From assembly GCF_000419605.1 (NCBI RefSeq), contig NZ_ATTI01000001.1:314001-378000 (forward strand): a stretch of 64,000 nucleotides of DNA. Reading direction: 5' to 3'. The DNA is from Sphingomonas phyllosphaerae 5.2. Lineage in GTDB: Bacteria > Pseudomonadota > Alphaproteobacteria > Sphingomonadales > Sphingomonadaceae. Position 1 is the stretch's first letter. Every line of letters starts with the position of its first letter. The position numbers were made by a program, and so were the translations under genes. Under the pieces are notes generated by a model, which saw only the letters and a program-made list of their open reading frames with translations, was not told where the DNA came from and did no database searches. Positions 37,869 to 58,390 of this stretch are shown here, in pieces.

Positions 37869-37986
37869 CTGATATACCACGACATGGACAAACCGCCTCA
37901 TGGACACGCCCCGATCGGCATCGATTCCCCGAAAAAGAGAAGAAAGCCTGCTTGAACGAACATATAAATGCGGTACTGATATTTCA
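37869..37986 (+). promoter_or_regulatory. two candidate GntR operators before TonB receptor
   Basis: CTGATATTTCAT (37976-37987) lies 35 bases before the receptor start, and a weaker copy CTGATATACCAC lies at 37869-37880. Both fit the CTGATATnTCAG motif found before other transcription units of the sugar locus and before gntR. The rest of the 500-base gap from 37495 shows no gene and should carry the MFS and receptor promoters. Confidence 0.5.
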
Positions 37987-38020
37987 TAAGCGCATGGAGC
38001 GCGATTGCACGGGGGGGATA

Positions 38021-40807
38021 ATGAAGGCTCGAGTAGCACTTTTGCGCGGCGCGGCGTTCGTCGCACTTTTGAGTTCCGAAGCAGCTTATGCCAAAGCTGG
38101 GCCTGAGACGACGCAAGCCGGCACCGCAGGCGCCGCGTCCGAGGGCGTTCAAGTTGGTGTGCCGGCGGCCGGTGCGCAGGCGCCGGATACGCGTGCATCC
38201 GATGCGACCGATTCTCCGGGAGCGGATATTATCGTCACCGGATTGCGCGCGAGCCAGCAAGCTTCGATCGAACTGAAGCGCCAGGCCGTCAACCAGGTGG
38301 ACTCGATCACCACCCAGGACATCGGCAAGTTACCCGAGCAGAACGTCGCGGAATCGCTGCAGCGCATTCCCGGCGTGACGATCAGTCGCAACGGGGGCGA
38401 CGGTCAGTTCGTGTCGGTGCGCGGCCTCGGCCCGCAGTTCAACGTGGTGACGCTGAACGGTCGCGTGCTCGCCACCGACAACATCGGACGCGAGTTCAGC
38501 TTTGACATCCTGCCCTCCGAGCTGATCGCCGGGGCCGATGTGTTCAAAAGCCCGAATGCGCGCATCAACGGTGCCAGCATCGGTGCGACCATCGACGTGC
38601 GCACGTTGCGGCCCCTTACCCAGAAGGCCTTCGTCCTCGCCGGGTCGTTCGACATGCAGTACGACGACCTGCCCGGCCAGTGGAACCCGCGTGCTTCGGG
38701 CGTGGTGAGCTGGCACAATGACGACAACACCATCGGCGCCTCGCTGGTCGCATCCTACCAGAAGCGCAACGTACGGATCGACTCGTTCGATATCGGCGCC
38801 GGCTGGGTTCGGCACAGCAACAACGACAGCTATTATGCCGGGCGTGTGGCGCCGTCGCTGGGGTCGTTCACGAACGTCGTGATGCCTTCCAACATCTCGC
38901 CGACCGTCAGCTTCTCCGACCGCGAGCGCATCGGGCTGAGCGGCACCATCCAGGCCGAGGCCAGTGAGGAACTGACGTTCACCGGCGACGGCTTCTTCTC
39001 GCATCTCCGGCAGCTCGACACGGCAAGCGGCATCGCTTTCGACTTCAGCGGCGGCACGCTGGCGGCGATGACGGTCGGCGACGACAATCGCGCGGTATTC
39101 CAGCGCTTCACCGGCGGCTTCGTCGACCAGATCGTCACCCGTTATCCGCGCAAGGCCGACACTTATCTGATCGGCGGCAACCTGGCGTGGGATCACGGCC
39201 CGATCAAGCTGGTCGCCGACCTCGCGGCGTCACGCGCCACGCGCCGTGGCAATGAAGACCAGTATTTCTCCACCATTCGCCGCACCAATTCGACGCTGGA
39301 GTGGGACAGCCGGACCGGCACGAACATCTTCGATACCAGGTTCAGCAATCCCGGTTATGCCAACGCGGCCGTCGACCGGAACAACGTCGGTGCGCATTTC
39401 GAGTTCGCGGGCGGCACGAACACCACCGACAAGACGCTTGAGGCGCATCTGGATGGCGAGTGGGCTCCGACGGATGCGGTCAAGATCTCGTTCGGCGGCG
39501 CCCGACAGAACCGCGACAAGACCGCAAGCAACGTCTCGCAGCCGGGCGCGTCGCAATGCGCGTTCTGTGGTGGCACGGTCTACTCGCCGCTGCCTGCCTC
39601 GTTGTTCTCCGCCACCCCGTCCGACTGGTTCCCCGGCTACAAGGGCGATACCGTACGCCAGTGGGTCATCTACGATCCGCGCGAAATGGCCAACACCCTG
39701 TCGGCGTTCCGCAGCAATTCACCGGGCTTTGCCGGCTATCAGCGTCCCGTGGCGGATCCCGCACAAAGCTCGATCGTCAAGGAGCGTGTCTGGGTCGGCT
39801 ATCTGATGTTCGACGTAAAGACCGATCTGGGTGACATGCCGCTGGCGATCAACACCGGCGTCCGCTTCGAGGACACCAGCTTCACCTCGGACGGCGCGGC
39901 GCAGACGATCCTCAGCGCGCGCTCGAACGGCCAGGGGCAGAATATCATCGCCCTCTCGCCGGTCGTGCCGATCGGCTTCGAGGGGCATTATTCGGACCTG
40001 CTGCCGTCGTTCAACGCCCGCCTCGATGTGACCGATACGCTCGTCGTCCGCGCCGATGCCTCGCGGGTGATGAGTCGCCCGACGCTGACCGATCTGTCTC
40101 CGGCGCAGAACATCCTCTCGAATCCGGGTAACGAGCAGATCACGCGCGGCAACCCGAACCTGTTGCCGTTCCGCGCGTCGCAGATCGGTGCGGCGCTCGA
40201 ATGGTACATCGACCGCTACTCGCTGCTGTCGGGTGCACTGTTCTACAAGAGCATCGACAGCTTCGTCGCGCGCACGACCACGGCGCAGACCGTTGATCAG
40301 GTCACCTTCCAGGTCACCACCCCGACCAACGGCAAGGGTGCGACCGTCAAGGGCTTCGAGGTCAATTACCGTCAGGCGTTCCGCAACCTGCCGTCGCCGC
40401 TCGACGGTCTGGGCATTCAGGCCAACTACACCTACACGGCAAGCAACGCCAATTACGCCAATCAGGTCACCGGAACGAGCTATGGCCTGGAGGGACTTTC
40501 GAAGAATTCCTATAGTCTGGTAGGATTCTACGAGAAGTATGGCGTGCAGGCGCGCGTCGCCTACAGCTGGCGTGACCGCTACCTGATCCAGGCCAGCGGG
40601 CGCAACGGGCTTCCGCTCTACTCGAACAGCTACGGGCAGGTCGACGCCAGTCTGATGTACGAAATAAACCCGCACCTCACGTTGAGCGTCAACGCTCTAA
40701 ACCTCAACAATGCGAAGGAGTTCACCTACTCCGACGTACCCGAACAGGTGTTCAGCTACCGTTTGACCGGTCGGCGATACCTGGTTGGTATCCGGGCGAA
40801 GTTCTGA
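38021..40807 (+). CDS. TonB-dependent receptor, deoxysugar locus
   Basis: 928 residues from ATG 38021, after a purine (G7) tract. Signal peptide (about 1-26), linker, then plug near residue 65 with ADIIVTGLRASQQAS. It continues with LPEQNVAESLQRIPGV and RGLGPQFNVVTLNGR, and the barrel ends YLVGIRAKF. An internal Cys pair (QCAFCGG) sits in an extracellular loop, similar to the CxxC in the first receptor. It probably imports oligosaccharides released by the GH141-like enzymes. It is followed by two strong hairpins and a convergent PEP-CTERM gene. Confidence 0.9.
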   Translation: MKARVALLRGAAFVALLSSEAAYAKAGPETTQAGTAGAASEGVQVGVPAAGAQAPDTRASDATDSPGADIIVTGLRASQQASIELKRQAVNQVDSITTQDIGKLPEQNVAESLQRIPGVTISRNGGDGQFVSVRGLGPQFNVVTLNGRVLATDNIGREFSFDILPSELIAGADVFKSPNARINGASIGATIDVRTLRPLTQKAFVLAGSFDMQYDDLPGQWNPRASGVVSWHNDDNTIGASLVASYQKRNVRIDSFDIGAGWVRHSNNDSYYAGRVAPSLGSFTNVVMPSNISPTVSFSDRERIGLSGTIQAEASEELTFTGDGFFSHLRQLDTASGIAFDFSGGTLAAMTVGDDNRAVFQRFTGGFVDQIVTRYPRKADTYLIGGNLAWDHGPIKLVADLAASRATRRGNEDQYFSTIRRTNSTLEWDSRTGTNIFDTRFSNPGYANAAVDRNNVGAHFEFAGGTNTTDKTLEAHLDGEWAPTDAVKISFGGARQNRDKTASNVSQPGASQCAFCGGTVYSPLPASLFSATPSDWFPGYKGDTVRQWVIYDPREMANTLSAFRSNSPGFAGYQRPVADPAQSSIVKERVWVGYLMFDVKTDLGDMPLAINTGVRFEDTSFTSDGAAQTILSARSNGQGQNIIALSPVVPIGFEGHYSDLLPSFNARLDVTDTLVVRADASRVMSRPTLTDLSPAQNILSNPGNEQITRGNPNLLPFRASQIGAALEWYIDRYSLLSGALFYKSIDSFVARTTTAQTVDQVTFQVTTPTNGKGATVKGFEVNYRQAFRNLPSPLDGLGIQANYTYTASNANYANQVTGTSYGLEGLSKNSYSLVGFYEKYGVQARVAYSWRDRYLIQASGRNGLPLYSNSYGQVDASLMYEINPHLTLSVNALNLNNAKEFTYSDVPEQVFSYRLTGRRYLVGIRAKF

Positions 40808-40815
40808 TCCTGGGC

Positions 40816-40869
40816 GGGCGCGATCCGAGCAGGAGGTCGGCGGATACCTTCCGGCCTCCGATCGCGCCC
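40816..40869 (+). terminator. two-tier hairpin after TonB receptor
   Basis: An outer stem GGGCGCGATC/GATCGCGCCC (40816-40825 with 40860-40869) encloses an inner stem GGAGGTCGG/CCGGCCTCC (40832-40840 with 40851-40859, one G-T pair). It starts 9 bases after the stop codon. There is no T-run. Confidence 0.6.
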
Positions 40870-41007: not shown

Positions 41008-41021
41008 GAGCGCAGTTCGAT

Positions 41022-41600
41022 CTATCCGGGCATCGAAGCCGCCCTCCGGGTGGCCGAGGCCGGCCGTGAAGACGCAGTTCTGCGACAGGCATAGCCCACG
41101 ATCCCGAAACCGGCCAGCATCAGTAGCCATGTTGCCGGCTCGGGCACGGCGGCTGCCGACCGAATGGTCATCTCGCCGCGGCCCATGGCGTCACCGATGT
41201 TGGTGGAGAACGTCATAGCCATGCCCTCTCCAGGGTTCATGCGCCCGCCTGCGGACAGCAGCGAAGTTCCGTAGCCCGACAAAAGCATGTCGCCGAACTG
41301 CATCGCAATCCCGCCGCCCTGAAGTTCCGAAAAGAAGGAGACGGTTGGCGCTGCCAAGTCGATGCGCTGCCCACCTAACCTGTATTCAAATGAGGATACG
41401 ACGACGGGACTATGTACGAGCGCATCGTCAACGGTGAAGTCGAAAGAAAAACTGCTGTCGGGCGAGGTCGCCGCACTCGCCATTGTGTCGCGGTCCCAGG
41501 CCCCCGAACCGATAACCTGCATCAGGGCGGCTTGTGCAGTGGCCGGCCAGCACAGCGACATCGCAGCCGCCAGCGTCAATCCCAAACGCGGAACCTTCAT
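41022..41600 (-). CDS. PEP-CTERM exported protein, deoxysugar locus
   Basis: 192 residues. The ATG at 41600 follows AGGAGGG and starts a signal peptide (MKVPRLGLTLAAAMSLCWPATAQA). The exported body is beta-rich, with SFSFDFTVDDALV and GGGIAMQFGDMLLSG. The C-terminus has PEPATWLLM, a hydrophobic helix (LAGFGIVGYACRR) and basic residues: a PEP-CTERM sorting signal. It is divergent from the GH141-like gene, with a candidate operator between them, so it is probably co-regulated with polysaccharide degradation. Function beyond sorting is unknown. Confidence 0.85.
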   Translation of the reverse strand: MKVPRLGLTLAAAMSLCWPATAQAALMQVIGSGAWDRDTMASAATSPDSSFSFDFTVDDALVHSPVVVSSFEYRLGGQRIDLAAPTVSFFSELQGGGIAMQFGDMLLSGYGTSLLSAGGRMNPGEGMAMTFSTNIGDAMGRGEMTIRSAAAVPEPATWLLMLAGFGIVGYACRRTASSRPASATRRAASMPG

Positions 41601-41663: not shown

Positions 41664-41682
41664 CTGATATTCCAGATATCTG
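41664..41682. promoter_or_regulatory. candidate GntR operator between PEP-CTERM and GH141-like genes
   Basis: CTGATATTCCAG (41664-41675) matches the locus motif with one change. It overlaps a second perfect 10-bp palindrome, CAGATATCTG (41673-41682). The pair sits in the divergent promoter region, 64 and 87 bases from the two start codons. Confidence 0.55.
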
Positions 41683-41768: not shown

Positions 41769-44450
41769 ATGTTGAAGAACATGGGAAAACTCGCAATCCG
41801 CGGCGCCTTGACGCTGCTGGCGTCAACTTGTTTGGCCGGCGTGGCCCAGGCATCCACCAATTATTACGTCGACCCTGCCAACGGCAGCGATCAGGCGTCC
41901 GGGGCAAGCGTTGACGCTGCCTTCCGGACTCTCGCCCGTGCAAAGCAGGCGGTGCGTTCCGTCAACGCCACGATGAAGGACGACATCGTCGTGAACCTGC
42001 GCGGCGGCACGTATAGCCTCACGACCCCGCTGGTGCTGGACACGGCGGATTCCGGCATGAACGGCCACACCGTGATCTGGAAGGCCTATGCATCGGAAAC
42101 GCCGCTCATCACGAGCGCGCGGCGGGTGACCGGATGGCGCTCGGTCGGGAACGGTCAGTACAAGGCCGCGGTCGGCGCGATGAACTTTCGTCAGATGTTC
42201 GTAAACGGCGTCCGGGCGACACGCTCCCGCCATCCGGAGGTGGGCAGCTTCGGGCAGTTGCTGAAAGGAGATCGCGCTGCCGAGACACTCACGACGTCGA
42301 GCGTCCTGGTCGGGAATTGGGCCAATCTGCCCCGCGTCGAGATGAGTCTGCTGATGCAATGGGCGGAATCCTATCTTCGCCTGGCGAGCATCACGCCGCA
42401 AGGCGATCGCGCGGACATTCGCATCCAGAAGTACGAAAGCGATATCTTCTTCCAGCGGCCCTTTCCGTTGCTGAAGGAGAACTCACCGTTATTCTTCCAG
42501 AACGCGCGCGAGTTCCTGAATACGCCGGGTGAGTTCTACGTCGATACCGATGAGCGCGCGGTCTATTATATGCCACGCAACGGCGAGACGTTGAGCGCCG
42601 CATCCGTGATCGTTCCCACGCTGGAGACGCTGGTCCAGATCAAGGGAAGCAGTTTGGATGCACCCGCGCACGACATCCGCTTTTCGGGCATAACGTTCGC
42701 GGACACGACGTGGCTATATCCCAATAGCCGTGGTCATATGAACGAGCAGGGAGGCATGTACAGCCTGGCGGCCAACATGCAGAACGAGCAATATGTCGGG
42801 CGTCCGCCCGCCGCGGTCTCCGCCGCATGGGCCGATCGTCTGCAATTCGACGGCAATACCTTCACCCGTGCCGGTGCCTCCGCACTCGATCTTCATAACG
42901 GCGTCCATCAGAGCGCCATCGTCGGCAACGTGGTGTATGACATCTCCGGCAATGGCATCGTCGTCGGCAAGTTCAGCGATCCGGACTACGAGGATCATCT
43001 GGTGTACAATCCGCCCATCACTCCGGCGGGTGAAGATCCGCGCGAAGTGACGCGCGACGTCGACGTGCTGAACAATCTGGTGACCAGGATCGGGCAGGAC
43101 TATTTCGGCACCGCGGCGATCAACGCCGGCTTCGTCAACACGGTCAACATCCGGAACAACGAAGTGACTGCAGTGCCGTGGGCCGGCATCTCGCTGGGCT
43201 GGGGCTGGCAAAAGGCGGCGAATGCACTCGGCAACAATCATGTCGACCGGAACGAGGTGGCCGCCGCTGTCGGCATGTTGTGCGATACGGCCGCAGTGTA
43301 TCACCTGTCGAACGATCCGGGCACCACGATCGACGCGAACTATTTCCACGACATCACCCGCAGCCCGTCGGCATGTCCGCACTACGTCGGCGGCTTCTAC
43401 CTCGACGAGGGAACCAGCAACGTTTTCGTTCGCGACAACGTGATGCAGACCGTTGAAAACCCCAAAATCTTCAACTTCACCGGCCCCAACAACGTCGTGC
43501 AGAACAATGAGGGGCAATCGTCGGCGACGATCAAGGCGGCCGGCCTCGAAGCGCCCTACCGGTCTCTGCGGAACCGCGTGAACCTTGCCTATAATCGTCC
43601 GACATCGTCGTCCTCGGTCTATGCGGCGCCGTTCGCCGCCGGGCGGGCGAACGACGGAAACGTCGGCAGCGGCTGGTCGCCGACCGCCAGCGACACCGCC
43701 GCATGGTGGCAGGTCGATCTCGGCCAGCCGTATCAGCTGGGCAGCTTCAGCATCGTCACCCGGCAGGATATGGATCAGCCGGATTCCCGCACCAATTTCG
43801 AGGTGCAGGCATCGAACGATCCCAACTTCGCCGACTTTACCGTCATCGGCCGGCAAGATCGCTGGACGCGAATCCCGTTCAGCGGCACGCTGACGCGGCA
43901 GGTCGTGGATAATGGCGCATACCGCTACGTCCGCGTAGCGAAGACCGACACGAACTATCTGTTCATCAGCGAGTTCAGTGTCGGCGCAGGTGGTGGCGAG
44001 GCGGTCAGCTATCCCGCACCCGATTTCGATCCGGCGCGCTATTACACGATCAAGAACGTGAACAGCGGCAAGCTCCTCGACGTGTCCGGCGAGAAAACGG
44101 AGCCGGGGACCCGACTGCAACAATGGGCGGCCACCGGCGCGAAGAACCAGCAGTTCCAGATCGTCAAGGTATCGGGCAACCTTTTCAAGATTGTGGCGCG
44201 ACACAGCGGGCTGGTGCTGGATGTCAAGGACGGCAGCAGTTACCCGGGTGCCGGGATCAACCAATATGCGTTCGAGGGCACGAACCACCAATTGTGGTAC
44301 TTCCAGCCCGCCGCCGACGGCACCTGGGTGATCCGCAGCTTCCGCAGCGATCTGGCGCTGGAGATCGGTGGAGAGTCGGTGGCGGACGGTGCCGCTGCCG
44401 CACAGTGGACTTACTACACCCAGAACAATCAACGCTGGACGATCGAATAG
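41769..44450 (+). CDS. secreted beta-helix glycosidase-like protein (GH141-like) with lectin modules
   Basis: 893 residues with a signal peptide ending VAQAS (about 1-29). Residues about 30-610 form a right-handed parallel beta-helix: the opening NYYVDPANGSDQASG and LRGGTYSLTTPLVLD, then repeated short strands with NNxV/NYFHD turns. This resembles family GH141, which includes an alpha-L-fucosidase acting on pectin and a xylanase. Residues about 615-760 are an F5/8-type-C (CBM32-like) module (WWQVDLGQPYQLGSFSI). Residues about 765-893 are a ricin-B lectin module (YYTIKNVNSGKLLDVSG and repeats with QxW-like ends). The extra lectins point to an extracellular polysaccharide target. ATG 41781 is an alternative start. 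A paralogue without lectins is at 59994. Confidence 0.7.
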   Translation: MLKNMGKLAIRGALTLLASTCLAGVAQASTNYYVDPANGSDQASGASVDAAFRTLARAKQAVRSVNATMKDDIVVNLRGGTYSLTTPLVLDTADSGMNGHTVIWKAYASETPLITSARRVTGWRSVGNGQYKAAVGAMNFRQMFVNGVRATRSRHPEVGSFGQLLKGDRAAETLTTSSVLVGNWANLPRVEMSLLMQWAESYLRLASITPQGDRADIRIQKYESDIFFQRPFPLLKENSPLFFQNAREFLNTPGEFYVDTDERAVYYMPRNGETLSAASVIVPTLETLVQIKGSSLDAPAHDIRFSGITFADTTWLYPNSRGHMNEQGGMYSLAANMQNEQYVGRPPAAVSAAWADRLQFDGNTFTRAGASALDLHNGVHQSAIVGNVVYDISGNGIVVGKFSDPDYEDHLVYNPPITPAGEDPREVTRDVDVLNNLVTRIGQDYFGTAAINAGFVNTVNIRNNEVTAVPWAGISLGWGWQKAANALGNNHVDRNEVAAAVGMLCDTAAVYHLSNDPGTTIDANYFHDITRSPSACPHYVGGFYLDEGTSNVFVRDNVMQTVENPKIFNFTGPNNVVQNNEGQSSATIKAAGLEAPYRSLRNRVNLAYNRPTSSSSVYAAPFAAGRANDGNVGSGWSPTASDTAAWWQVDLGQPYQLGSFSIVTRQDMDQPDSRTNFEVQASNDPNFADFTVIGRQDRWTRIPFSGTLTRQVVDNGAYRYVRVAKTDTNYLFISEFSVGAGGGEAVSYPAPDFDPARYYTIKNVNSGKLLDVSGEKTEPGTRLQQWAATGAKNQQFQIVKVSGNLFKIVARHSGLVLDVKDGSSYPGAGINQYAFEGTNHQLWYFQPAADGTWVIRSFRSDLALEIGGESVADGAAAAQWTYYTQNNQRWTIE

Positions 44451-44881: not shown

Positions 44882-45167
44882 CGTCGGCACGCTCGACCGT
44901 GACACGCTGTTCGTCGCGTTGGCGCGGCCGCAGATGTTCGCCGGCGTGACGTACAGCTTCTTCGTGCTGAACGCGGTGGTCACGACCGAAGTGTTTCTGC
45001 TGTCGAGGTCGGTCTGGGTGCTGGTACTGGCGCTGGCGGTCCACGCCGGCGGCTGGATCGCGTGCCGGTACGAGCCGCGCATCTTCGACATGATGCTCAA
45101 GCGCTCGGTGCATTGCCCGCGCGTGCGCAACCATCGCTTCTGGCGCTGCAACAGCTACCGCGCATGA
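44868..45167 (+). CDS. virB3: VirB3, inner-membrane T4SS component
   Basis: 99 residues with the VirB3 pattern: LFVALARPQMFAGVTYSFFVLNAVV, then a second hydrophobic helix (VWVLVLALAVHAGGWI) and RYEPRIFDMM near the C-terminus. It works with VirB4 at the inner membrane. The start lies within the end of virB2 and the stop within the virB4 start (ATGA). Confidence 0.88.
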   Translation: MAETSVGTLDRDTLFVALARPQMFAGVTYSFFVLNAVVTTEVFLLSRSVWVLVLALAVHAGGWIACRYEPRIFDMMLKRSVHCPRVRNHRFWRCNSYRA

Positions 45168-48750: not shown

Positions 48751-48766
48751 CAGGGCGATACCTGAG

Positions 48767-49615
48767 ATGAGCGACAGCGACGACGATTATTACCGGCGTG
48801 CGAGCGGATGGGCCGTTGCGCAACAGGCCGCGTCCGACCGCTCGCGGCGCGTTGCCTGGGCCGTCGCGGGGGTGGCGGTGGGCGTCATCGCGCTGCAGGC
48901 CACCGCGCTGGCGCTGATGACGCCGCTGAAGACGGTGGAGCCGGTGACCCTGCTCGTCGATCGCACGACCGGGTTCGTCCAGGCACTGAAGCCGCTGGAG
49001 GCGAACCGCGTCACCCGCGATGCCGCGCTGACCCAGTCGTTCCTGGTCCAGTACGTCATCGCGCGCGAGGGCTTCGCGCGGACGAGCCTGCGGCAGGATT
49101 ACCGCAAGGTGGCGCTGTGGTCCGCCGGGCGGGCCCGTGCCGACTATCTGGCGGGGATGCCGGTCACCAACCCGCAAAGCCCGCTGAACCTTCATCCCGG
49201 CGATACCACCGTCGATGTCGCGGTGAAGAGCGTGTCGCCGGTCCGCGATGGCGTCGCTCAGGTCCGTTTCGACACGCGCGTCGCCGGTGGCGGCAAACCC
49301 GCGGCACCGCCACGATCATGGATCGCGAACATCCGCTATCGCTACACCGACGCGCCGATGTCCCTGCAGGATCGCTACGTCAATCCGCTGGGTTTTCAGG
49401 TGTCGCAGTATCGCCGCGATCCCGAAGCATTGCCCGCCTTTGCGGAACCGCCTGTGGTCGACGCAGCGACCGGGGCCTACGACGTTCGCCTGCCCGTCCC
49501 GTCGTCGGCCGGTCGATCGATGCGCTCGCCGGCCTCGGCGATGCCCGCGACGGCCACGATCGTCGTCCCGATGGCGAACCTGCCGATGGGGTCGCCGCTG
49601 GGGCCCGGCCGATGA
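48767..49615 (+). CDS. virB8: VirB8, T4SS inner-membrane assembly factor
   Basis: 282 residues. A short cytoplasmic N-terminus (MSDSDDDYYRRASGWAV), one membrane helix (VAWAVAGVAVGVIALQATALALM) and a periplasmic VirB8 domain with TPLKTVEPVTLLVDRTTG, FLVQYVIAREGF and ANIRYRYTDAPMS-LQDRYVNPLGFQV. It nucleates the complex. The last 50 residues are unusually Pro/Ala/Ser-rich. The gap to virB6 (16 bases) is the only non-overlap in the operon and contains no room for virB7. Confidence 0.9.
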   Translation: MSDSDDDYYRRASGWAVAQQAASDRSRRVAWAVAGVAVGVIALQATALALMTPLKTVEPVTLLVDRTTGFVQALKPLEANRVTRDAALTQSFLVQYVIAREGFARTSLRQDYRKVALWSAGRARADYLAGMPVTNPQSPLNLHPGDTTVDVAVKSVSPVRDGVAQVRFDTRVAGGGKPAAPPRSWIANIRYRYTDAPMSLQDRYVNPLGFQVSQYRRDPEALPAFAEPPVVDAATGAYDVRLPVPSSAGRSMRSPASAMPATATIVVPMANLPMGSPLGPGR

Positions 49616-50313
49616 GGATGTGCTATCTGCTGTGCGGCGCGCTGATGCTCGGTGTGACGAGCGGCGGCCTGGCGCAGGCCGACCCGCCGGCGGAACGATC
49701 CGGCGATCCGCGCATCCGGACGTTGCTCTACGATCCCGAGCAGGTGTTCGAGGTGCAGGTCGCCTCCGGCTTCGCGCTCACGCTCGCGCTGGCTCCGGAC
49801 GAGCGGGTGGAGAACGTCATCGTCGGCAACAGCGCGGCCTGGCAGGTTACGCCCAGCCGTCGCGGCGACCATCTGTCCGTCAAGCCGGTCCAGGACGGCG
49901 TCGAAACCAACATGACGGTGATCACCGACGCGCGGCGCTACAGCTTCCTGCTGCGGCCCGCATCCGATCCGGCAGCGGCGGCCTTCGACATCCGCTTCCG
50001 TTACGCCGGCGTCCCGCGCGACGTGGAGACGATCGTCGCGGCGACCCCGCCGGCCTTTTACAAGGTCAGCGGTGATCGCCTCCTGCGTCCCGGCGCGATG
50101 GGGGACGATGGGGAGCGGACCACCATCCGCTGGCCGGACGGCGTCGCCCTGCCGGCGATCTATACGGTCGACGAGCGCGGGCGGGAGTCGATCGTGAACG
50201 GTCGCATGGTGGATGGCGACTATGTCGTTCCCGGCGTCGCGGCGCGGTTTCGGTTCCGGCGTGATGGCCGGCAGGCGACCGCCACGCGCCAGCTGCCCAA
50301 GGCACGGCCATGA
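49612..50313 (+). CDS. virB9: VirB9/TrbG, T4SS outer-membrane core protein
   Basis: 233 residues with a signal peptide (about 1-22, ending LAQA). The first domain has RIRTLLYDPEQVFEVQVASG and the C-terminal beta domain has FYKVSGDRLLRPGAMGDDGERTTIRWP and PAIYTVDERGRESIVNGRMV, as in VirB9. It forms the outer-membrane core with VirB10 (and normally VirB7). Overlaps virB8 by ATGA. Confidence 0.9.
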   Translation: MRMCYLLCGALMLGVTSGGLAQADPPAERSGDPRIRTLLYDPEQVFEVQVASGFALTLALAPDERVENVIVGNSAAWQVTPSRRGDHLSVKPVQDGVETNMTVITDARRYSFLLRPASDPAAAAFDIRFRYAGVPRDVETIVAATPPAFYKVSGDRLLRPGAMGDDGERTTIRWPDGVALPAIYTVDERGRESIVNGRMVDGDYVVPGVAARFRFRRDGRQATATRQLPKARP

Positions 50314-51431
50314 CCGCAGCACGGCGGCGGCCGGCATCGACCGGCGAGGATGAATTGCGGCGCATCGCACCGTTGCGTCCCGATGTGCCGGTGACCCGGC
50401 CGCGCGGCGGCGCGTGGTTGTTCGCGGGCATGTGCAGCGCGCTGGCGATCGGCCTGTTCGTGGCGCTGGACATCCAGCGGCAGGCGAGGTCCGCGCCCGA
50501 TCTTGCCGGACGCGGCGGTGCGGCCGCGGGCTTTGCGGAGCCGCCGCCGCTGCGCGTTCCGCCCAGCGCCACGCCGACTCCTGTGGCCGCCCTGCAGGTA
50601 GAGCTGCCGCCACCGCCGGTCGAACCTCGACCATCGGACCCGATGCCGCCGCCCGCCGTCACGAACGCGTTGCCGCCACCGCCGCCGCTCCCGACCGGGC
50701 GTTCGTCGGCGCAGGCGCCGGTTGCGGCGCGCCGCGATGATCAGGCGATGGTGTACGATCGCTCGGGCGACGCCGCCGGCCCCGCCACGGCCGCAGCCGG
50801 CACGACGGGCGGCTCGCCGGCCGCCGCCTCGGCAGCGGCGGGGGACGACCCGCCGTTGCGCGCCTCCGTCATCCGCGGTCGATCGTCCACGATCGTGCAG
50901 GGATCGTTGATCGCAGCGACGCTGGAGACGCCGATCGATTCCACACGGGCGGGCTTCGTCCGCGCGATCGTGGCGCGCGACGCCCGCGGGTTCGACGATA
51001 CGCGCATCCTGGTCCCGCGCGGCAGCCGCCTGATCGGCGAATATGCATCGGACGTGCAGTCCGGCCAGCGCCGCGTGCTGGTGACCTGGACCCGGTTGAT
51101 CCGGCCGGATGGCGTCGCGATCCGGCTCGGCGCGCCCTCGACCGACCGGCTGGGGCAGGCCGGCATTCCGGGCCGGGCGAACACCCACTTCCTCGCGCGG
51201 TTCACCAGTGCGGTGTTGCAGACCGCGCTGGCGGTCGGGACGAACCTGGCGTCACGGCCGGGAAGGGGGTCGGTGATCGTCGGCGTCCCCGGTCAGGCGA
51301 CCGGGTCGATCGGGCAGTTGCTGTCGCCGGGCGCCGATCTGCGCCCGACGATCAAGGTGGACCAGGGAGCTGCCGTCATGGTCTTCGTCGCGCGCGATCT
51401 CGATTTCGCGGGCGCGGCGCCGCGACAATGA
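50310..51431 (+). CDS. virB10: VirB10/TrbI, T4SS envelope-spanning core protein
   Basis: 373 residues. A cytoplasmic N-terminus, one membrane helix (AWLFAGMCSALAIGLFVAL, about residues 32-50), a long Pro-rich periplasmic spacer, then the TrbI/VirB10 domain. That domain has GSLIAATLETPIDSTRAGFVRAIV, VPRGSRLIGEYASDVQSGQRRVLVTWTRLI, and a DQGAAVMVFVARDLDF end. It links inner-membrane ATPases to the outer-membrane pore. Overlaps virB9 and virB11 by 4 bases. Confidence 0.93.
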   Translation: MTAARRRPASTGEDELRRIAPLRPDVPVTRPRGGAWLFAGMCSALAIGLFVALDIQRQARSAPDLAGRGGAAAGFAEPPPLRVPPSATPTPVAALQVELPPPPVEPRPSDPMPPPAVTNALPPPPPLPTGRSSAQAPVAARRDDQAMVYDRSGDAAGPATAAAGTTGGSPAAASAAAGDDPPLRASVIRGRSSTIVQGSLIAATLETPIDSTRAGFVRAIVARDARGFDDTRILVPRGSRLIGEYASDVQSGQRRVLVTWTRLIRPDGVAIRLGAPSTDRLGQAGIPGRANTHFLARFTSAVLQTALAVGTNLASRPGRGSVIVGVPGQATGSIGQLLSPGADLRPTIKVDQGAAVMVFVARDLDFAGAAPRQ

Positions 51432-52381
51432 CGATCGCGCCATCGCCGTATCTGACGCAATATCTGCAGCCGATTGCAGCATTGCTGGCACGCGACGACG
51501 TGACCGACATCTACATCAATGCCCCCGGCGAGGTCTGGGCGGAGACGATCGGCGGCACGATCGAGCGATACGAGGAACCCGCCATCGACGAGGCGTCGCT
51601 GTGGCGGTTGGCGCGTCAGGTCGCCAGCCTGTCGCATCAGGGCATCAATCGCGAACATCCGCTGCTCTCGGCGATCCTGCCGGATGGATCGCGCGTACAG
51701 ATCGTCGCACCGCCGGCGACGCGCGGCGCGATGGCTGTGGCGATCAGGCGGCACGTCGTGGCGGACCGGCGACTGACGGATTACGACTGGTCGACGCTGG
51801 CGCGCGCGCGCGATGTGCCCACCGCCCCGGTCGAAACCGATCCCGCCGCGCGGCTGGCCGCGGCCGTCCGCGCCCGCAAGACAATCCTCGTCTCCGGCGG
51901 AACGTCGACCGGCAAGACAACCTTCCTCAATGCGTTGCTAAGCGAGATCCCGGCGAACGAACGGCTGATCGTGATCGAGGATACGCCAGAACTGCAATTG
52001 CGCCACGCCAATGCGGTCGGCCTGGTGGCCGTGCGCAATGCGTTGGGCGAGGCGCGGATCGGCACCGAAGACCTGCTCCAGGCATCGCTGCGCATGCGGC
52101 CCGACCGGATCATCCTTGGCGAATTGCGCGGGCCCGAGGCGATGACGTTCCTGCGCGCCATCAATACCGGGCATCCCGGATCGATCAGTACGATCCACGC
52201 CGACACGCCCGACCGTGCGGTGGAACAGCTGGCGCTGCTGGTCCTGCAAACCGGAACCCGGCTGACCCGCGCGGATATATTGCTGTATGTCCACCAGATC
52301 ATCGACGTCTTCGTCCAGCTCGAACGCCGCAACGGCCGCCGACAGATCACCGAGGTGCGCTGGACCGATCGGACCCGATAA
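51428..52381 (+). CDS. virB11: VirB11, T4SS hexameric ATPase
   Basis: 317 residues, soluble. Walker A GGTSTGKTTFLNALL (near residue 157), then RLIVIEDTPELQLRHANAVGL, RMRPDRIILGELRGPEAM (Walker B) and TGHPGSISTIHADTPDRAVEQL (His box), in the order typical of VirB11. It powers secretion together with VirB4. Last clear gene of the operon; no virD4 coupling protein follows. Confidence 0.95.
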   Translation: MTIAPSPYLTQYLQPIAALLARDDVTDIYINAPGEVWAETIGGTIERYEEPAIDEASLWRLARQVASLSHQGINREHPLLSAILPDGSRVQIVAPPATRGAMAVAIRRHVVADRRLTDYDWSTLARARDVPTAPVETDPAARLAAAVRARKTILVSGGTSTGKTTFLNALLSEIPANERLIVIEDTPELQLRHANAVGLVAVRNALGEARIGTEDLLQASLRMRPDRIILGELRGPEAMTFLRAINTGHPGSISTIHADTPDRAVEQLALLVLQTGTRLTRADILLYVHQIIDVFVQLERRNGRRQITEVRWTDRTR

Positions 52382-52802: not shown

Positions 52803-55664
52803 TTAGTAGAAGGCCCGAATGGCGAATGCCACGGTTCGGCTGCGCTGGATGAACGAGCGGAACACGTCGGGATCGACGATGTAGTCGCGTCGATTGGCCC
52901 GGCTCAGGTTGGTGCCCGTGATGCTGAGCTCCAGATGCTCGACCGGACGGTACGAGATGCTGGCGTTGAGTTGCCCGTAGCTTTTCGTAAACGTCGGTTG
53001 CGCAGACCGGTCGTTGCCACCGCCAAGCGCCTGGAAGTAGCTTGAACGATAGGCGTACGCCACGCGCGTGGCGAACGGCCCCTTTTCGTAATACGCGACC
53101 GCGTTCGCATTGTGCTTCGATGCGCCGGGGAAGCCATACGACGTCGTGCTCGCCGCGCTGTCGATGTTGATCTTGGAATTGATGTACGTGTAGTTCGCCT
53201 GCACGCCGAAGCCGTCATACGGCGAGGGCAGGAAGCTGAACGGCTGGTTCATGCCGACTTCGGCGCCGTACACCCGTCCGTTTGAGGCGTTGACCGGCTG
53301 GGTCACATCCAGCCGGATTGCGCCCTGAGCGGGAATGGTGGTGTTCTGGGTGACGGTGCGCAGGATGAAATTGTCGACCTTCTTGTAGAACCCGCCGAGA
53401 TAAAGGGCACCACCACCACCGGTATAATATTCAAGCGTCGCGTCGAATTGCCATGCCGTCAGCGGCTTGAGCTTGGTGTTGCCGAGCGTGGCAGTACCGC
53501 GCTGGCTGCGATCGACGCGAGGATCGTTGGGATCGTAGAAACTGACCGCGTTGCGAGGCGCCGTATCCTCATATTCCGGACGGGACATGACCCGCGAGAC
53601 TCCGAGTCGCAGGTGCAGGGGATCAACCGGATTCAGGTCCACGTTCGCCGAGGGAAGCACTTCCCAGTAACGGTTCGTGTCCCGGCTAGGCGTCAGCCCC
53701 TGGCTGAGCGTCGCGTTCAGACCGTTGAGGATGGTGGTGCTTTGCGCCGATCGCGACGTGAGATCGGTATAAACCGCCCGCACGCCGGCATTGCCCTTGA
53801 ACGGTACGCCTGCGACGGTTCCATCGGTGTCGCCCTGCAAGTAGAGCGCCGTCGTCTTTTCGAGCGCGGTCACGGCGAACGACGCATCCTCCTTGTCGAT
53901 CGCGGCGTCACGCAACGCCGGCACCAGATTGGCTGCGGCGGGGTAGTTCAGATACGGCGCGGGCACGCCGAAGTCGAAACGCGTCAGGAAGTCGGCACCG
54001 GACCCGTTGAACACCACGCCAGGCATCTGCTGGGACACAGCAGTGGTGAAGCCGGATTTGGCGTCGGGCGCCGGGACGAACAGCGACGTGCTGCGCAGGC
54101 GTATGGTGGTCGCCTGGTAGCGTGCCCCGGCCTTCAGCACGAAGTTAGCCGTCGCGTCGAACGCGATGTCGCCACGAAACGCATGGGCATGTGAATTGTT
54201 GAAGTATTTGCGACCGAAGAAGCCGTTGAAGACACCGCCCGCTGGCGTCGTGACGTTCGATACGCCTGTGATCGTCGGAACTTGCTGGCTGCCGTCGAAC
54301 TGGACGTTTTGGTTGGGTGCGCTGATCCCGCCGAAGAAGAGGCGGAGATCCTGCTTATAGCGCCCGTTCGAATAGCCGTAGTCGACGCTCGCGCGAACCC
54401 GGTCACCCTTGTATTTGATGTTGCCGCCGGCAACGATTGCATATTGATCGTTGAAGAACTTCAACGGCTGCGGATCGAGCGCCACTCCGGGACCCGTTCC
54501 GCCGGCATATGTCAGACGCGAGGTGTCGAAGCCGATCAGGCGCCCGTCCCGCGTCGTGTAACCGCCGGGGCGCGCCACGCCGGTATAGACACTGTTCTCG
54601 CCGTTGAGCTGAAGATCGCTCGTCGGCCGGAACTGTCGGTTGAGCAGCTTGGAATAGGTGCCGTCGACGTTCACTTCCCATGCGTCATCCGGCTTGTACT
54701 GCATCCCGCCGCTGAATGCGAGGCGCGTGATTTTGCCGTCGTTTTTCGACATCGCGATGCGGGAGGGCACCAGAACGTTCCGCTCGACCCGATCAGCGCG
54801 GCCATCCGAATTGTCATCGAACGACAGGTCGCGGGTGGCGAAGCGCGAGAAGAGCTCCGATGCCGACGTGTCGCCGCGCGACCACAGGCTCGACACATAG
54901 ACGCCGAGCTTGTTGTCCATCAACTTCGTGCCGACGATACCGCTGACACGAGGAATAAAGTTTTCCGTCTGATCGTCGTAATCGGCGCGCGCGGTGACGC
55001 TGCCGAACGACGTGCCGCCGCTGGGCACGCGGTAATCGAGCGGCTTCAGTGTCTGTACGTCGATCTCGCCCGCGATGCCTGTTTCGACGAGGTCGGCGGT
55101 CGGCGTCTTGTACACGAGCATGCCGGAAATGACTTCGGTCGGCAGCACGTCCAGGTTGACCTGGCGCAAGGAGCCGATGCCCTCGTTGCCACCGGTCAAT
55201 GGTACGCGACCGTTGATCGTAACCTGCGTGTAGCTAGGTCCAAGCCCCCGGATCGACGCACGATCACCGGCGGTTCCGCTGTCGTTGCGCTCGATCTGAA
55301 CGCCGGGAACGCGTTGCAGCACGTCGGCGATGTTCACGTCGCTGAACCGGCCGAGATCCTGGCTCGTCACGGCCTCGACGACCGACGCGGCCTCGCGCTT
55401 GACCGCAACGGCCCGCTCGGCAGACGCGCGATAGCCGGTGACCACGATGTCCGAAATCTGCTCATCCTGCGCACCGGGGGCGTTTGCGGCAGCGGCGACG
55501 CTGGTAGTGGGGGACGGAGCCGTATCAGGCGAATTTTGCGGTGAACCGGGCGTTCCAGCCGGAAGCGGCGTGGGCGTGTCGCCTGCCTGAGCGCTCGCCA
55601 TTGTCGCCTGTGTGAGCGACAGCAAACCTGCGGAACACAAACAGAACACTCGAACCCTGCTCAT
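52803..55664 (-). CDS. TonB-dependent receptor, deoxysugar locus
   Basis: 953 residues from ATG 55664, preceded by GGGGAGAG. Signal peptide (about 1-26), a long Pro/Thr linker, and a plug near residue 76 with SDIVVTGYRASAERAVAVKR. It continues with FSDVNIADVLQRVPGVQIER and RGLGPSYTQVTINGR; the barrel ends TVAFAIRAFY. Its divergent partner is the sugar-acid dehydratase operon, so it probably imports a fucose- or rhamnose-containing oligosaccharide. A candidate GntR operator lies about 104 bases upstream. The frame can be read 34 codons further 5' but without a ribosome site. Confidence 0.9.
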   Translation of the reverse strand: MSRVRVFCLCSAGLLSLTQATMASAQAGDTPTPLPAGTPGSPQNSPDTAPSPTTSVAAAANAPGAQDEQISDIVVTGYRASAERAVAVKREAASVVEAVTSQDLGRFSDVNIADVLQRVPGVQIERNDSGTAGDRASIRGLGPSYTQVTINGRVPLTGGNEGIGSLRQVNLDVLPTEVISGMLVYKTPTADLVETGIAGEIDVQTLKPLDYRVPSGGTSFGSVTARADYDDQTENFIPRVSGIVGTKLMDNKLGVYVSSLWSRGDTSASELFSRFATRDLSFDDNSDGRADRVERNVLVPSRIAMSKNDGKITRLAFSGGMQYKPDDAWEVNVDGTYSKLLNRQFRPTSDLQLNGENSVYTGVARPGGYTTRDGRLIGFDTSRLTYAGGTGPGVALDPQPLKFFNDQYAIVAGGNIKYKGDRVRASVDYGYSNGRYKQDLRLFFGGISAPNQNVQFDGSQQVPTITGVSNVTTPAGGVFNGFFGRKYFNNSHAHAFRGDIAFDATANFVLKAGARYQATTIRLRSTSLFVPAPDAKSGFTTAVSQQMPGVVFNGSGADFLTRFDFGVPAPYLNYPAAANLVPALRDAAIDKEDASFAVTALEKTTALYLQGDTDGTVAGVPFKGNAGVRAVYTDLTSRSAQSTTILNGLNATLSQGLTPSRDTNRYWEVLPSANVDLNPVDPLHLRLGVSRVMSRPEYEDTAPRNAVSFYDPNDPRVDRSQRGTATLGNTKLKPLTAWQFDATLEYYTGGGGALYLGGFYKKVDNFILRTVTQNTTIPAQGAIRLDVTQPVNASNGRVYGAEVGMNQPFSFLPSPYDGFGVQANYTYINSKINIDSAASTTSYGFPGASKHNANAVAYYEKGPFATRVAYAYRSSYFQALGGGNDRSAQPTFTKSYGQLNASISYRPVEHLELSITGTNLSRANRRDYIVDPDVFRSFIQRSRTVAFAIRAFY

Positions 55665-55767
55665 TTCAAGCTCTCCCCACGCATGCCTGGTCAACAGCCG
55701 GCATCTCGTGCTGATTGGCGCTGAAATGTATTTCATGCAAGCTATATAATTAGCACGTACCCCCATT

Positions 55768-55779
55768 CTGATATATCAA
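55768..55779. promoter_or_regulatory. candidate GntR operator, TonB receptor side
   Basis: CTGATATATCAA contains the perfect 10-bp palindrome TGATATATCA (55769-55778) and fits the CTGATATnTCAG motif. It lies in the AT-rich divergent region upstream of the minus-strand receptor. Confidence 0.55.
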
Positions 55780-55962
55780 GCGAGCTATCAGGCTCTAGTC
55801 TGGCGCTTCTACCAGATATTGTGTGCGAGTTATGGACATGTGATCTCGCGTTAGATGTTGTGAACGGCGGTGGCCAGATGCCGCGATCGTCCACATGGAC
55901 CTCGCGACGACCAGGGCGCGGCAAAAGCTGCTTGCAGCACCGCTTTTAGTTTGCAATATGAT

Positions 55963-55976
55963 TCTGAAATATCAGA
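55963..55976. promoter_or_regulatory. candidate GntR operator, dehydratase side
   Basis: TCTGAAATATCAGA has 5-bp inverted arms (TCTGA/TCAGA) around AATA and matches the locus motif with one change. It ends 36 bases before the dehydratase ATG (56013), overlapping where RNA polymerase would start, as expected for a repressor site. Confidence 0.6.
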
Positions 55977-56012
55977 CGGAGATGGGTGATGCCGGATGGG
56001 CACAGGATCGCC

Positions 56013-57113
56013 ATGTACAAGCTCACGCGATTTCAATATCCGCGTGATCGGTCGGTGGGCGACTCGCAGGTCTTAACAACCGAAATCAACGTGGCGGCGA
56101 TCGAACTGATCGATGCCGGCGGGCGGATCGGGCTTGGCTTTGCGCAGTCGCTGTTCAGCGTTCTGCCTGATTCCGCCGAAATCGAGCGCATCTTTCTGGA
56201 GCAGGCCTGGCCCGGCCTGGAAGGCAAGCTGCCGTCGGCGCTTGCCCTGGCGGTAAGGCGACCGCGCGGTGGTAATGTCCGGCGCATGACGCTGCCGTTC
56301 GAAGAGGCCATCCAGCAGGCGGTGTGGGATCTGCTCGCACAGCAGCAGGGTGTGCCGCTGTGGCAGATGCTGGGAGCGGAGCGGCAGTCGGTTCCCGCAT
56401 ACGCCAGCGGACTCGACTTCCACCTGTCGGATCACGCGTTCTCCGAATTGTTCGGCAATGCGGCAGAGCAGGGCTATCGCGGGTTCAAGATCAAGGTAGG
56501 TCACCCCGAACTGGAGCGCGATCTGCACCGCCTGAACCTGCTGCGTCAGGCAGTCGGGCCCGAGCGACCGGTAATGATCGATCCCAACGAGGCGTGGAAC
56601 GCGCAGCAGGCGATCGATGCGCTGGCGATCTTCGAGCGCGCGGGACACCGCATCTTCTGGGTCGAGGACCCGGTGCCGCGCGACGATATCGACGGGCTGA
56701 AGATGATCCGTCGCCTGGGCGTGACGCGGGTGAATGCCGGCGAGTATCTCGATTTGTCCGGCAAGCGCCGGCTGCTGGAGCAGCGCGCGTGCGACATGCT
56801 GAACGTCCATGCCCAGGTCGGCGACGTGATGCGCGCCGGCTGGCTGGCGAGCGAGCACAATGTCGAAGTGACGTTGGGCAACAGCTTCCTGGAGATCGGC
56901 GTCAACATGGCGCTGGCGCTGCCGGGCGTCCGCTGGCTGGAGTATAGTTTCCAGAACTTCGATCATCTGGTCGAGGAGACGTTCCCGATCCGAGACGGCA
57001 TGATCTTCGGCAGCGATCGGCCCGGGCATGGCCTGCGATTGAGCGCGGGCGCGGAGCAGGCCTGCCGCGCAATAGCTGCGGCGGGTGCGGCGACCGCCGT
57101 GACCGCGGCATGA
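56013..57113 (+). CDS. enolase-superfamily sugar-acid dehydratase
   Basis: 366 residues (ATG 56013 after AGGA; ATG 55989 is an alternative). It is a mandelate racemase/muconate lactonizing enzyme family member: GFKIKVGH supplies the KxK catalytic lysines, MIDPNEAW the first metal ligand, FWVEDPV the second and NAGEYLD the third. A later NVHAQVGDVMRAG replaces the usual His-containing strand. It would dehydrate an aldonate to its 2-keto-3-deoxy form; by context L-fuconate or L-rhamnonate. It is shorter than characterised L-fuconate dehydratases (about 440 residues), so exact substrate is open. First gene of the catabolic operon. Confidence 0.75.
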   Translation: MYKLTRFQYPRDRSVGDSQVLTTEINVAAIELIDAGGRIGLGFAQSLFSVLPDSAEIERIFLEQAWPGLEGKLPSALALAVRRPRGGNVRRMTLPFEEAIQQAVWDLLAQQQGVPLWQMLGAERQSVPAYASGLDFHLSDHAFSELFGNAAEQGYRGFKIKVGHPELERDLHRLNLLRQAVGPERPVMIDPNEAWNAQQAIDALAIFERAGHRIFWVEDPVPRDDIDGLKMIRRLGVTRVNAGEYLDLSGKRRLLEQRACDMLNVHAQVGDVMRAGWLASEHNVEVTLGNSFLEIGVNMALALPGVRWLEYSFQNFDHLVEETFPIRDGMIFGSDRPGHGLRLSAGAEQACRAIAAAGAATAVTAA

Positions 57114-58372
57114 CGATGTCCTCGCCCCCGACGGGCACACCCGCCTCCGCGCCGCGGAACTGGCGGCTGATCGTCTCGCTTGGCGTCGTGTTCTTCGTGC
57201 TGCTGACGCTGTACGCGGCGGTGCTCGGCGTGCTGCTGCCCAACCAGATCCAGAGCATCGATCCGGCGAGCAAGACGAAGACGCTGGGCATCGTCTTTGC
57301 GATCACATCGGTGTTCAGCACGATCTCGACACCGTTTGCAGGTGCATTCTCCGATCGTACACGAAGCCGGTTCGGGCGCAGGACGCCGTGGATCGTCATC
57401 GGCGGCATCATCGGCGGCGGGACGATCGTTCTCGTCCCGCACGGTGCCAACCTGGCCGTGGTCACCACCTTGTGGGTGGTCGCGGTAATCAGCCTCAATT
57501 CGATGCAGCCGGCGATCACCACGATCGTCGCCGATCGCTTCTCGGTCGAGGAACGTGGCTTCGTTTCCGGCGTCGTCGGTGCGGCGATGACCGCGGGCGT
57601 GTCGGCCGGCACCATCTATGGCGGCTTGCTGGCCCACGATCTGACGTTGGCTTATGGCGCGTTGGGGGGCGGCATCGTCGTTACGTGCCTTGGCTTCGTC
57701 CTGCTCAATCCCGAACCGCGCGAGGCGTTGCCGCCGCTGCCGCCGTTCCGGGCAGGTGCCTTCCTGCGTTCGTTCTGGATCAATCCGCGCGAGCATCCGG
57801 ACTTTGCCTGGGCGTTTCTCGGCCGCTTCACCATCTACATGGGCTATCAGGCGATCGTCACGTATCTGCTGTACATCCTGCAGGATCATATCGGGCTGAG
57901 CCAGGCCGACGCCAATTCAAAGATCGCGCAATTGTCGTCGGTGACGTTCGTGGCGCTGGTCTTTTCGGGGCTGGCCTCGGGATGGCTGTCCGACCGCCTG
58001 CAGCGCCGCAAACCGCTGGTGTTCGTCGCCGGCATCGTCATGGCGCTCGCGGTGGCCGCCCCGCTGGTGCAGCCGACCGCGACGGGCATGCTCGTCTACG
58101 CCGTGCTGATCGGCCTGGGCTATGGCGCGTTCATGTCGGTCGACCTCGCGCTGATGACGCAGGTGCTACCGGCCAGCGAGGGTTCCGACGATACGGGCAA
58201 GGATCTCGGCATCCTGACGACGGCGGTCAACGTGCCGCAGATCCTCAGTCCCGTCCTGGCGGCGATGCTGCTCAGCGCCAGCGGCAACGATTACCCGCTG
58301 CTCTTCATGGTGGCCGGCATGTTCGTGCTCGCCGGTGCGGGTTTGGTGCTGCCGATCAGGTCGGTGCGGTAG
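57110..58372 (+). CDS. MFS sugar transporter
   Basis: 420 residues with about twelve helices. SDRTRSRFGRRTPWIVIGG is the typical loop 2-3 motif, and its repeat-like counterpart in the second half is SGWLSDRLQRRKPLVFVAG. It overlaps the dehydratase stop by ATGA. In this operon it most likely carries the free deoxysugar, or its lactone or acid, across the inner membrane. The loop 2-3 motif is shared with glycoside/cation-symporter-type MFS proteins. Confidence 0.82.
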   Translation: MTMSSPPTGTPASAPRNWRLIVSLGVVFFVLLTLYAAVLGVLLPNQIQSIDPASKTKTLGIVFAITSVFSTISTPFAGAFSDRTRSRFGRRTPWIVIGGIIGGGTIVLVPHGANLAVVTTLWVVAVISLNSMQPAITTIVADRFSVEERGFVSGVVGAAMTAGVSAGTIYGGLLAHDLTLAYGALGGGIVVTCLGFVLLNPEPREALPPLPPFRAGAFLRSFWINPREHPDFAWAFLGRFTIYMGYQAIVTYLLYILQDHIGLSQADANSKIAQLSSVTFVALVFSGLASGWLSDRLQRRKPLVFVAGIVMALAVAAPLVQPTATGMLVYAVLIGLGYGAFMSVDLALMTQVLPASEGSDDTGKDLGILTTAVNVPQILSPVLAAMLLSASGNDYPLLFMVAGMFVLAGAGLVLPIRSVR

Positions 58373-58378
58373 CGATGG

Positions 58379-58390
58379 CTGATATCTCAG
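58379..58390. promoter_or_regulatory. candidate GntR operator before gntR
   Basis: CTGATATCTCAG is the best-formed copy of the locus motif: arms CTGA/TCAG around TATC. It lies 6 bases after the MFS stop and 60 bases before the regulator's ATG, suggesting autoregulation and a second promoter inside the operon. Confidence 0.6.

Follow-up and report, generated by a model that had tools for sequence, protein, structure and literature searches.

A palindromic sequence as the probable operator of an FCD-type GntR regulator and its L-fucose-type gene set in Sphingomonas phyllosphaerae 5.2

We analyzed a 64,000-nucleotide stretch of the Sphingomonas phyllosphaerae 5.2 genome (contig NZ_ATTI01000001.1, forward-strand positions 314,001 to 378,000; hereafter the window, in whose own coordinates features are given), where a near-palindromic sequence of 12 bases recurs beside genes of sugar uptake and degradation. 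Our analysis makes it highly probable that this palindrome, yTGAwATwTCAr, is the operator of the FCD-type GntR regulator encoded at 58451, which would regulate its own gene and, probably as a repressor, an L-fucose regulon extending over 20 kb. The sites lie 5' of gntR and its targets, and this placement is conserved together with these genes in other genomes. From this pattern we infer binding by GntR, the mode of control (repression or activation), the effector, the identity of the sugar and the operon structure. The pairing of motif and regulator had been proposed in a first-pass annotation of the window, and comparison supports it through a motif found de novo, sites before target genes, co-occurrence of gntR with the dehydratase gene, and a core retained before a paralogous regulator gene. 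In kind, the system would be a GntR sugar regulon engaged in ordinary carbon-source regulation, a classification that is well supported comparatively. The analysis yields a set of operators and targets that can be tested, for a regulon of the L-fucose type found repeatedly in several groups of bacteria.

The first-pass annotation had reported six copies of the motif, and each of them is located where it was placed. Five are strong and are treated here as predicted operators without an assigned strand. The first (37976..37987, CTGATATTTCAT) lies 33 bp 5' of the TonB-dependent receptor gene at 38021 and downstream of a TATAAA hexamer (37963-37968). The second (41664..41675, CTGATATTCCAG) lies between a PEP-CTERM gene on the minus strand and a GH141 gene on the plus strand. 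Two more sites, 55768..55779 (CTGATATATCAA) and 55964..55975 (CTGAAATATCAG), are the predicted operators of a divergent TonB receptor gene and of the dehydratase operon, respectively, and the latter is found one base 3' of a TATGAT hexamer (55957-55962). The fifth (58379..58390, CTGATATCTCAG) is the predicted autoregulatory operator, 60 bp 5' of the gntR ATG, and its core occurs at an equal distance before the paralogue gntR2. The longest-frame gene caller placed 37867, 37974 and 41662 inside genes; the likely starts at 38021, 41600 and 41769 make these positions intergenic. All five strong sites thus lie 5' of likely gene starts, as had been claimed for the motif in general. The remaining copy (37869..37880, CTGATATACCAC) is a weak possible second operator whose membership is doubtful; it may not count, and the proposal of six operators holds for the five strong ones. 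An Rfam scan of 37000-64000 returned no family at the gathering threshold.

The motif was recovered independently of the host. A search with the GntR protein gave matches in 7 of 296 genomes for the order (at 1e-20) and in 24 of 295 for the genus (at 1e-30, the host counted). The de novo motif search was given 300 bp upstream plus 30 bp of gntR from 24 loci of 23 other genomes, and its top motif, yTGAwATwTCAr in short, was identical at three palindromic widths and one free width, with a confident site (posterior >0.85) in 18 of the 24 loci. A 16-column matrix made from the sites of the other genomes was used to scan 321,403 host bases (a few kb counted twice), comprising the window with the sequence continuing it on the 3' side, the region of gntR2 and ten background stretches of 20 kb each. 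The five highest scores were those of 37976 (22.6), 55964 (22.2), 55768 (21.9), 41664 (21.1) and 58379 (17.4). The next best were 17.2 at L022:18672, in an AT-rich gap, and 15.0 at 37867, which is the weak copy at 37869 and alone is not separable from background. Judged by its score alone, the 58379 site is near background; further support for it comes from the paralogue and from the sites that precede gntR in relatives. In the 24 loci of the relatives, matches of at least 18 outside the training 16-mers numbered 27 in intergenic positions and 7 in called genes; in the same loci, 60 palindromes with permuted columns averaged 0.4 and 0.1, with maxima of 3 and 2.

Other matches in the host were not accepted. 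A one-mismatch match at 33986, absent from the first-pass annotation, lies inside a receptor gene and scores 3.8. Two distal matches, 1902084 (14.6) and 2296979 (17.3, level with 58379), fall within open frames of 862 and 414 residues, and the matches at 1444157, 1874489, 2056139, 3207800 and 3338168 score 3.1-12.6.

The position of the sites relative to homologous genes was then counted, with a score of at least 16 within 350 bp upstream, in the 24 genus loci and subsequently in 22 loci of named genomes, 21 of which carry a genus name other than Sphingomonas. Forty named-genome loci had been fetched; the 18 left out of this count were 17 that matched genomes already in the genus set and L147, a second Nitrospirillum amazonense. 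The named-loci counts include non-independent close relatives (Nitrospirillum, Sphingopyxis, Kaistia). The dehydratase gene had an upstream site in 17 of 21 genus loci and 16 of 18 named loci (33/39 together), and the homologue of the 38021 receptor gene in 10 of 11 and 4 of 4 (14/15 together). For gntR itself the counts were 15/24 in the genus loci, a circular result for these training loci, and 17/20 in the named loci. Lower or uneven counts were obtained for the aldo/keto reductase (9/16 genus, 5/9 named), FAH (0/4 and 4/6), lldD (2/8 and 1/9) and SDR genes (1/12 and 0/10). No upstream site at this threshold was found for the operon-internal MFS genes (0/20 genus and 0/11 named, 0/31 in all), the lactonase gene (0/12 and 0/2) or the GH-like genes (0/16 and 0/9). 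All other called genes, including the divergent neighbors of targets, gave 19/212 and 3/131.

Regulator and targets also occur together. A dehydratase homologue at 1e-80 was found in 22 of the 295 genus genomes, 21 of which also have gntR; in the sole genome with the dehydratase and without gntR (G440/L140), no site of at least 15 was present in the 20 kb around the dehydratase gene, which is a single case. Named genomes with gntR at 50-74% identity include Sphingomonas, Sphingobium, Sphingopyxis, Hephaestia, Stakelama, Nitrospirillum, Niveispirillum and Azospirillum, and further Caulobacter, Labrys, Kaistia, Bosea, Mesorhizobium, Prosthecomicrobium, Peristeroidobacter and Steroidobacter. Thirteen distal exact matches were fetched from gntR-positive relatives. 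Two of them (L127, L135) precede lldD or coincide with its start; the others, inside called genes or near genes matching no label used, were set aside. The division of the regulon over 20 kb, as first described, holds in the host. A homologue of the 38021 receptor is instead encoded beside the dehydratase gene, and divergently from it, in the relative G515 (L053; 79%) and in a Sphingobium (L144; 71%).

Several observations weigh against the proposed assignment. The word has no clear excess in the 3.92-Mb host genome, where at up to one mismatch the pattern gives 17 strand-matches compared with 10 for a backward control, and YTGAWATWTCAR gives 10 distinct sites compared with 11 control sites. 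A confident de novo site before gntR was missing in 6 of the 24 genus loci, and the de novo search had no shuffled control of its own, the control being the column-permuted palindrome matrices. The exact 12-base pattern is present in 124 of 271 gntR-negative genus genomes compared with 19 of 24 gntR-positive ones; its genus-wide presence was discarded as a co-occurrence test, which is weak since the word recurs in gntR-negative genomes. A site of at least 16 was found in 10 of the 20 gntR-negative loci read (six in called genes, three intergenic and one at a gene edge), so that an intergenic copy alone is no proof of regulon membership; none of these 20 loci has a pathway-gene homologue at 45% identity or above. 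The gntR2 site scores 13.1, within background, and a second, partly conserved block in the last 20 bases before the start (14/20 match) is shared by the two host regulator genes, so that conservation between them is not confined to the core. With respect to sugar and mode of control, the dehydratase is above the cut-off of no curated sugar-acid dehydratase family, which leaves its substrate a prediction, and pooled promoter placement in relatives gives repression no support.

The lack of a clear genome-wide excess is also what favors an account in which the repeats are chance AT-rich palindromes between genes. On the other hand, the matrix from other genomes ranks exactly the five sites first, the sites precede homologous genes across genera, and the column-permuted controls are far lower. 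Chance is very unlikely for the five strong sites and may account for the weak copy at 37869; overall, we give this account next to no credence. The non-random feature of the motif is the location of its sites, not their frequency. The exact CTGATATNTCAG has two copies genome-wide, both within a 20.4-kb stretch of the window, and 5 of the 10 YTGAWATWTCAR sites at up to one mismatch are inside the same 20.4 kb. Word counts over the window or the whole genome were dropped as a test, the word having no clear excess; in the window, the pattern at up to three mismatches gives 78 matches compared with a shuffle mean of 64 (standard deviation 10), a total attained in 7 of the 100 shuffles. What is informative is where the sites lie and whether they are conserved.

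A different regulator could own the sites, for example the ROK-family protein encoded at 35178; about 1.5 kb separates the end of its gene from the 37869 site. However, the motif accompanies gntR in relatives, a ROK homologue was labelled just twice among the 24 genus loci, in L061 and L069 with 32-33% identity, and the de novo motif was derived from gntR upstream regions, which makes this explanation highly improbable.

The regulator to which we assign the operators is encoded by gntR (58451..59158, plus strand), a proposed repressor of 235 residues. Both FCD-GntR domains are above cut-off, the N-terminal winged helix (Pfam GntR, PF00392, 1.7e-10) and the C-terminal FCD domain (PF07729, 3.4e-17). 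The AlphaFold model (mean predicted local distance difference test score, 80) has six C-terminal helices and matches the FCD regulator structures TM0439, PmiR, McbR/YncC and VanR. The protein therefore resembles the known FCD-GntR regulators (TM0439, VanR/Atu1419, PmiR, NanR) in its two domains and in the structure matches of its model, although identity to the solved members listed is about 14-24%. In 23 aligned regulators, both host copies included, the helix residues Q62, P63, L64, R65, A67 and L68 are invariant, and E153, H157, H201 and H223 are invariant in 23 aligned GntR sequences. The latter four may correspond to the FCD metal ligands, as would be expected for a metal-dependent acid pocket. 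Judging from the pathway, the effector would be a carboxylate such as a sugar acid. Operators of the FCD group are of the TGGTATACCA/TTGTATACAA type with a GT..AC core. The operator proposed here, TGATATATCA, is likewise a short, even palindrome; it differs in its AT..AT core and, in relatives, in the presence of partners at 21 bp.

The host has a second copy of the regulator gene, gntR2 (G000:C1:1185655-1186359; L021:17656, L022:1656), with 84% identity in protein and 80% in DNA. It lies in a different carbohydrate-type cluster, with neighbors encoding DUF2264, another FCD-GntR protein, a TonB receptor, an MFS transporter and KduI. The upstream regions of the two genes are identical at 54 of 120 bases, and TGATATCTCAG is intact at an equal distance (-72). 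The product of gntR2 may control its own gene and share operators with gntR.

The proposed targets before the gap in the regulon are the gene of a TonB-dependent receptor (38021..40807, plus strand; Pfam Plug and beta-barrel) and that of a GH141-type glycosidase with F5/8C and ricin-type lectin domains (41769..44450, plus strand; Pfam GH141_M 3.5e-24, F5_F8_type_C, RicinB_lectin_2); the gene of a PEP-CTERM exported protein (41022..41600, minus strand; Pfam PEP-CTERM 1.7e-07) is a possible target. After the gap, a second TonB-dependent receptor gene (52803..55664, minus strand; assigned by Pfam, scanned as 52803-55766) is a proposed target whose likely Met is at 55664, preceded by a ribosome-binding-like GGAGAG. 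The first gene of the predicted operon encodes an enolase-superfamily sugar-acid dehydratase (55986..57113, plus strand; Pfam MR_MLE_C), for which the ATG at 56013 is an alternative possible start; its nearest structure is 2oz8, Mll7089 (1.9e-130). On the same strand follow genes for an MFS sugar or sugar-acid transporter (57110..58372; Pfam MFS_1), GntR, and a lactonase of the L-fucono-1,5-lactonase type (59163..59990; Pfam Amidohydro_2), which matches NCBIfam FuconLaconase at 5.1e-37 with 128 bits, below the curated cut-off of 400, and whose nearest solved relative is 4dlf (2.4e-20), presumably a lactonase. The next genes encode a GH141-like beta-helix glycosidase (59994..62090), whose best PDB match is the glycoside hydrolase BT_1002 (5mqp, 1.9e-43), which we take to be an alpha-L-fucosidase; an SDR dehydrogenase putatively acting at the 2-keto-3-deoxy-sugar-acid step (62335..63180; Pfam adh_short_C2, adh_short); and the L-lactate dehydrogenase LldD (63188..64000, running 363 bases beyond the window; NCBIfam L-lactate dehydrogenase 2.2e-129, above cut-off). 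Beyond the window, the remainder of lldD is followed on the same strand by genes for a FAH hydrolase, nearest among solved proteins to the L-2,4-diketo-3-deoxyrhamnonate hydrolase 8gsr (8.2e-96), and an aldo/keto reductase, nearest to L-galactose dehydrogenases (best 2.8e-28).

Families fitting a sugar dehydrogenase, lactonase, dehydratase, keto-deoxy acid dehydrogenase (the SDR protein), FAH hydrolase and lactate use are therefore adjacent on one strand. The non-phosphorylative pathway of L-fucose (6-deoxy-L-galactose) ends in pyruvate and L-lactate. The gene set fits this route, although the individual activities are assigned by family, and LldD would consume the resulting lactate. The likely substrate of the dehydratase is L-fuconate. 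Unlike the enzyme of the known pathway, it belongs to the Mll7089 (2oz8) group and is distant from the solved L-fuconate dehydratases 1yey and 2hxt (about 4e-15); its place in the operon suggests a role for this group, whose PDB name states no function. The same remoteness can be cited for a regulon serving L-rhamnose, or another 6-deoxy sugar or sugar acid, as can the best solved relative of the FAH hydrolase, which acts on a diketo-deoxyrhamnonate; the L-rhamnose and L-fucose routes have late steps in common. In addition, L143, a metagenome-assembled Sphingomonas genome, has two sites near its gntR, which adjoins an alpha-L-arabinofuranosidase gene and a GH3 gene, so that the glycan source may vary by species. 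Against L-rhamnose stand the aldo/keto reductase, closest to L-galactose dehydrogenases, the lactonase, closest to the fuconolactonase model though under its cut-off, and the two GH141-type glycosidases, one of which matches BT_1002. The first-pass annotation had left the choice between L-fuconate and L-rhamnonate; the reductase, lactonase and GH141 matches make L-fucose more likely, and a different sugar is a minority possibility to be kept in view. In other bacteria the neighborhood includes further transport genes: in Kaistia soli (L173), the paired dehydratase gene and gntR stand between ABC-transporter genes, and Mesorhizobium (L170) has a single ABC gene.

Control of this L-fucose-type gene set is likeliest to be by repression that a pathway acid lifts; the main ground is family analogy, FCD-GntR sugar regulators being mostly repressors. 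Sites 37976 and 55964 lie just 3' of the -10-like hexamers TATAAA (37963) and TATGAT (55957), where a bound dimer would mask the transcription start, a weak hint of repression. The site at 41664 has an activator-like position, upstream of the promoter-like pair TTTACA-17-TAGTAA (41683, 41706), which would suit a GntR that activates or acts in both directions; given the family habit and the two -10-like hexamers, we consider such a mode unlikely. Among 152 oriented site-gene pairs pooled from relatives, TTGACA was most frequent at offsets -27 (10 pairs) and +15 (9 pairs), the average over offsets being 0.75. Every one of these occurrences belonged to the 74 pairs that have a 21-bp partner, and the 78 pairs lacking one contributed none. 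These offsets correspond to the start of the partner, whose TTGATA is one base off TTGACA, so the peak is the partner motif itself and was rejected as evidence of promoters or repression. Its loss makes the main reading slightly less secure and activation slightly less improbable.

In the proposed mechanism, a GntR dimer would occupy each palindrome when inducer is absent and hold down gntR itself together with the dehydratase operon, that is, the genes for the dehydratase, MFS transporter, GntR, lactonase, GH141-like glycosidase, SDR dehydrogenase, LldD, FAH hydrolase and aldo/keto reductase. The two TonB receptor genes and the GH141/PEP-CTERM pair would be repressed likewise. An acid of the L-fucose pathway (L-fuconate or a keto-deoxy product) would free GntR from its operators, and the release would allow joint expression of uptake, glycosidases and the non-phosphorylative L-fucose route ending in pyruvate and L-lactate. 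GntR2, being 84% identical and having a similar upstream site, could act on the same operators.

In relatives, the palindromes are frequently arranged in phased arrays. For the spacing analysis a main site of at least 16 and a partner core of at least 4 were required, so that many partners are weak, and coding and intergenic positions were pooled; 19 named-genome loci were included, with L146, L148 and L159 also omitted as near-copies. We found 51 distinct core pairs at a centre spacing of 21 bp, compared with 0-8 at each other spacing from 12 to 65, a count inflated by close relatives, yet the arrays occur in widely separated genera. One array or more was present in half of the 24 genus loci (12) and in 17 of the 19 outgroup loci; in the outgroup, 8 arrays comprise at least three copies. 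Examples with two or three copies are those at L170, L171-L175, L177, L157, L158, L152, L165, L145 and others. In the window itself, no site is paired at 21 bp, and the neighbors, at 13, 19, 36, 42 and 47 bp, are weak. A spacing of two helical turns would place dimers on the same side of the DNA and suggests that they bind cooperatively; the analysis predicts a cooperative, helically phased operator architecture.

Escherichia coli NanR is likewise a regulator of a sugar-uptake and degradation regulon that binds repeated elements. Its repeats are short direct hexamers, whereas those described here are palindromes with centres 21 bp apart in relatives, and NanR is a weaker fold match of the GntR model (query template-modelling score 0.36-0.41). 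Tandem elements of the NanR kind are absent at the window's own sites, which have no 21-bp partner, and are present in relatives, mostly with weak partners. We tentatively consider, as a conjecture with somewhat less in its favor than against it, that an old FCD-GntR circuit had arrays of two or three 21-bp-phased palindromes bound by cooperative same-face dimers, and that in the host the arrays decayed to single sites and gntR gained a second copy, so that one operator set would be served by two regulators, either interchangeable or in competition. The holders of this old circuit would be sphingomonads, Nitrospirillum, Niveispirillum, Kaistia, Labrys, Mesorhizobium, Bosea, a Caulobacter and Steroidobacter relatives.

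Several neighboring genes accompany the regulon in the window. A ROK-family regulator gene (35178-36326) and a further TonB receptor gene (32327-35086) adjoin it and are perhaps a separate sugar system. A GPH/MFS_2 symporter frame (36232-37839, minus strand) is divergent from the receptor gene at 38021; its match covers about the first half of the profile, and the symporter may therefore be truncated. The weak 37869 site could belong to this symporter gene. The two halves of the regulon are separated by a VirB-type type IV secretion set (45062-52381) comprising VirB4, VirB6/TrbL, CagX/VirB9, TrbI/VirB10 and VirB11. Labelling of the 24 loci from relatives, which span about 20 kb or less apiece, yielded no VirB-type gene. 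The host has a second VirB4 at C1:901887 (66%), and VirB4 was found at 1e-60 in 20 of the 80 genomes searched, the host counted.

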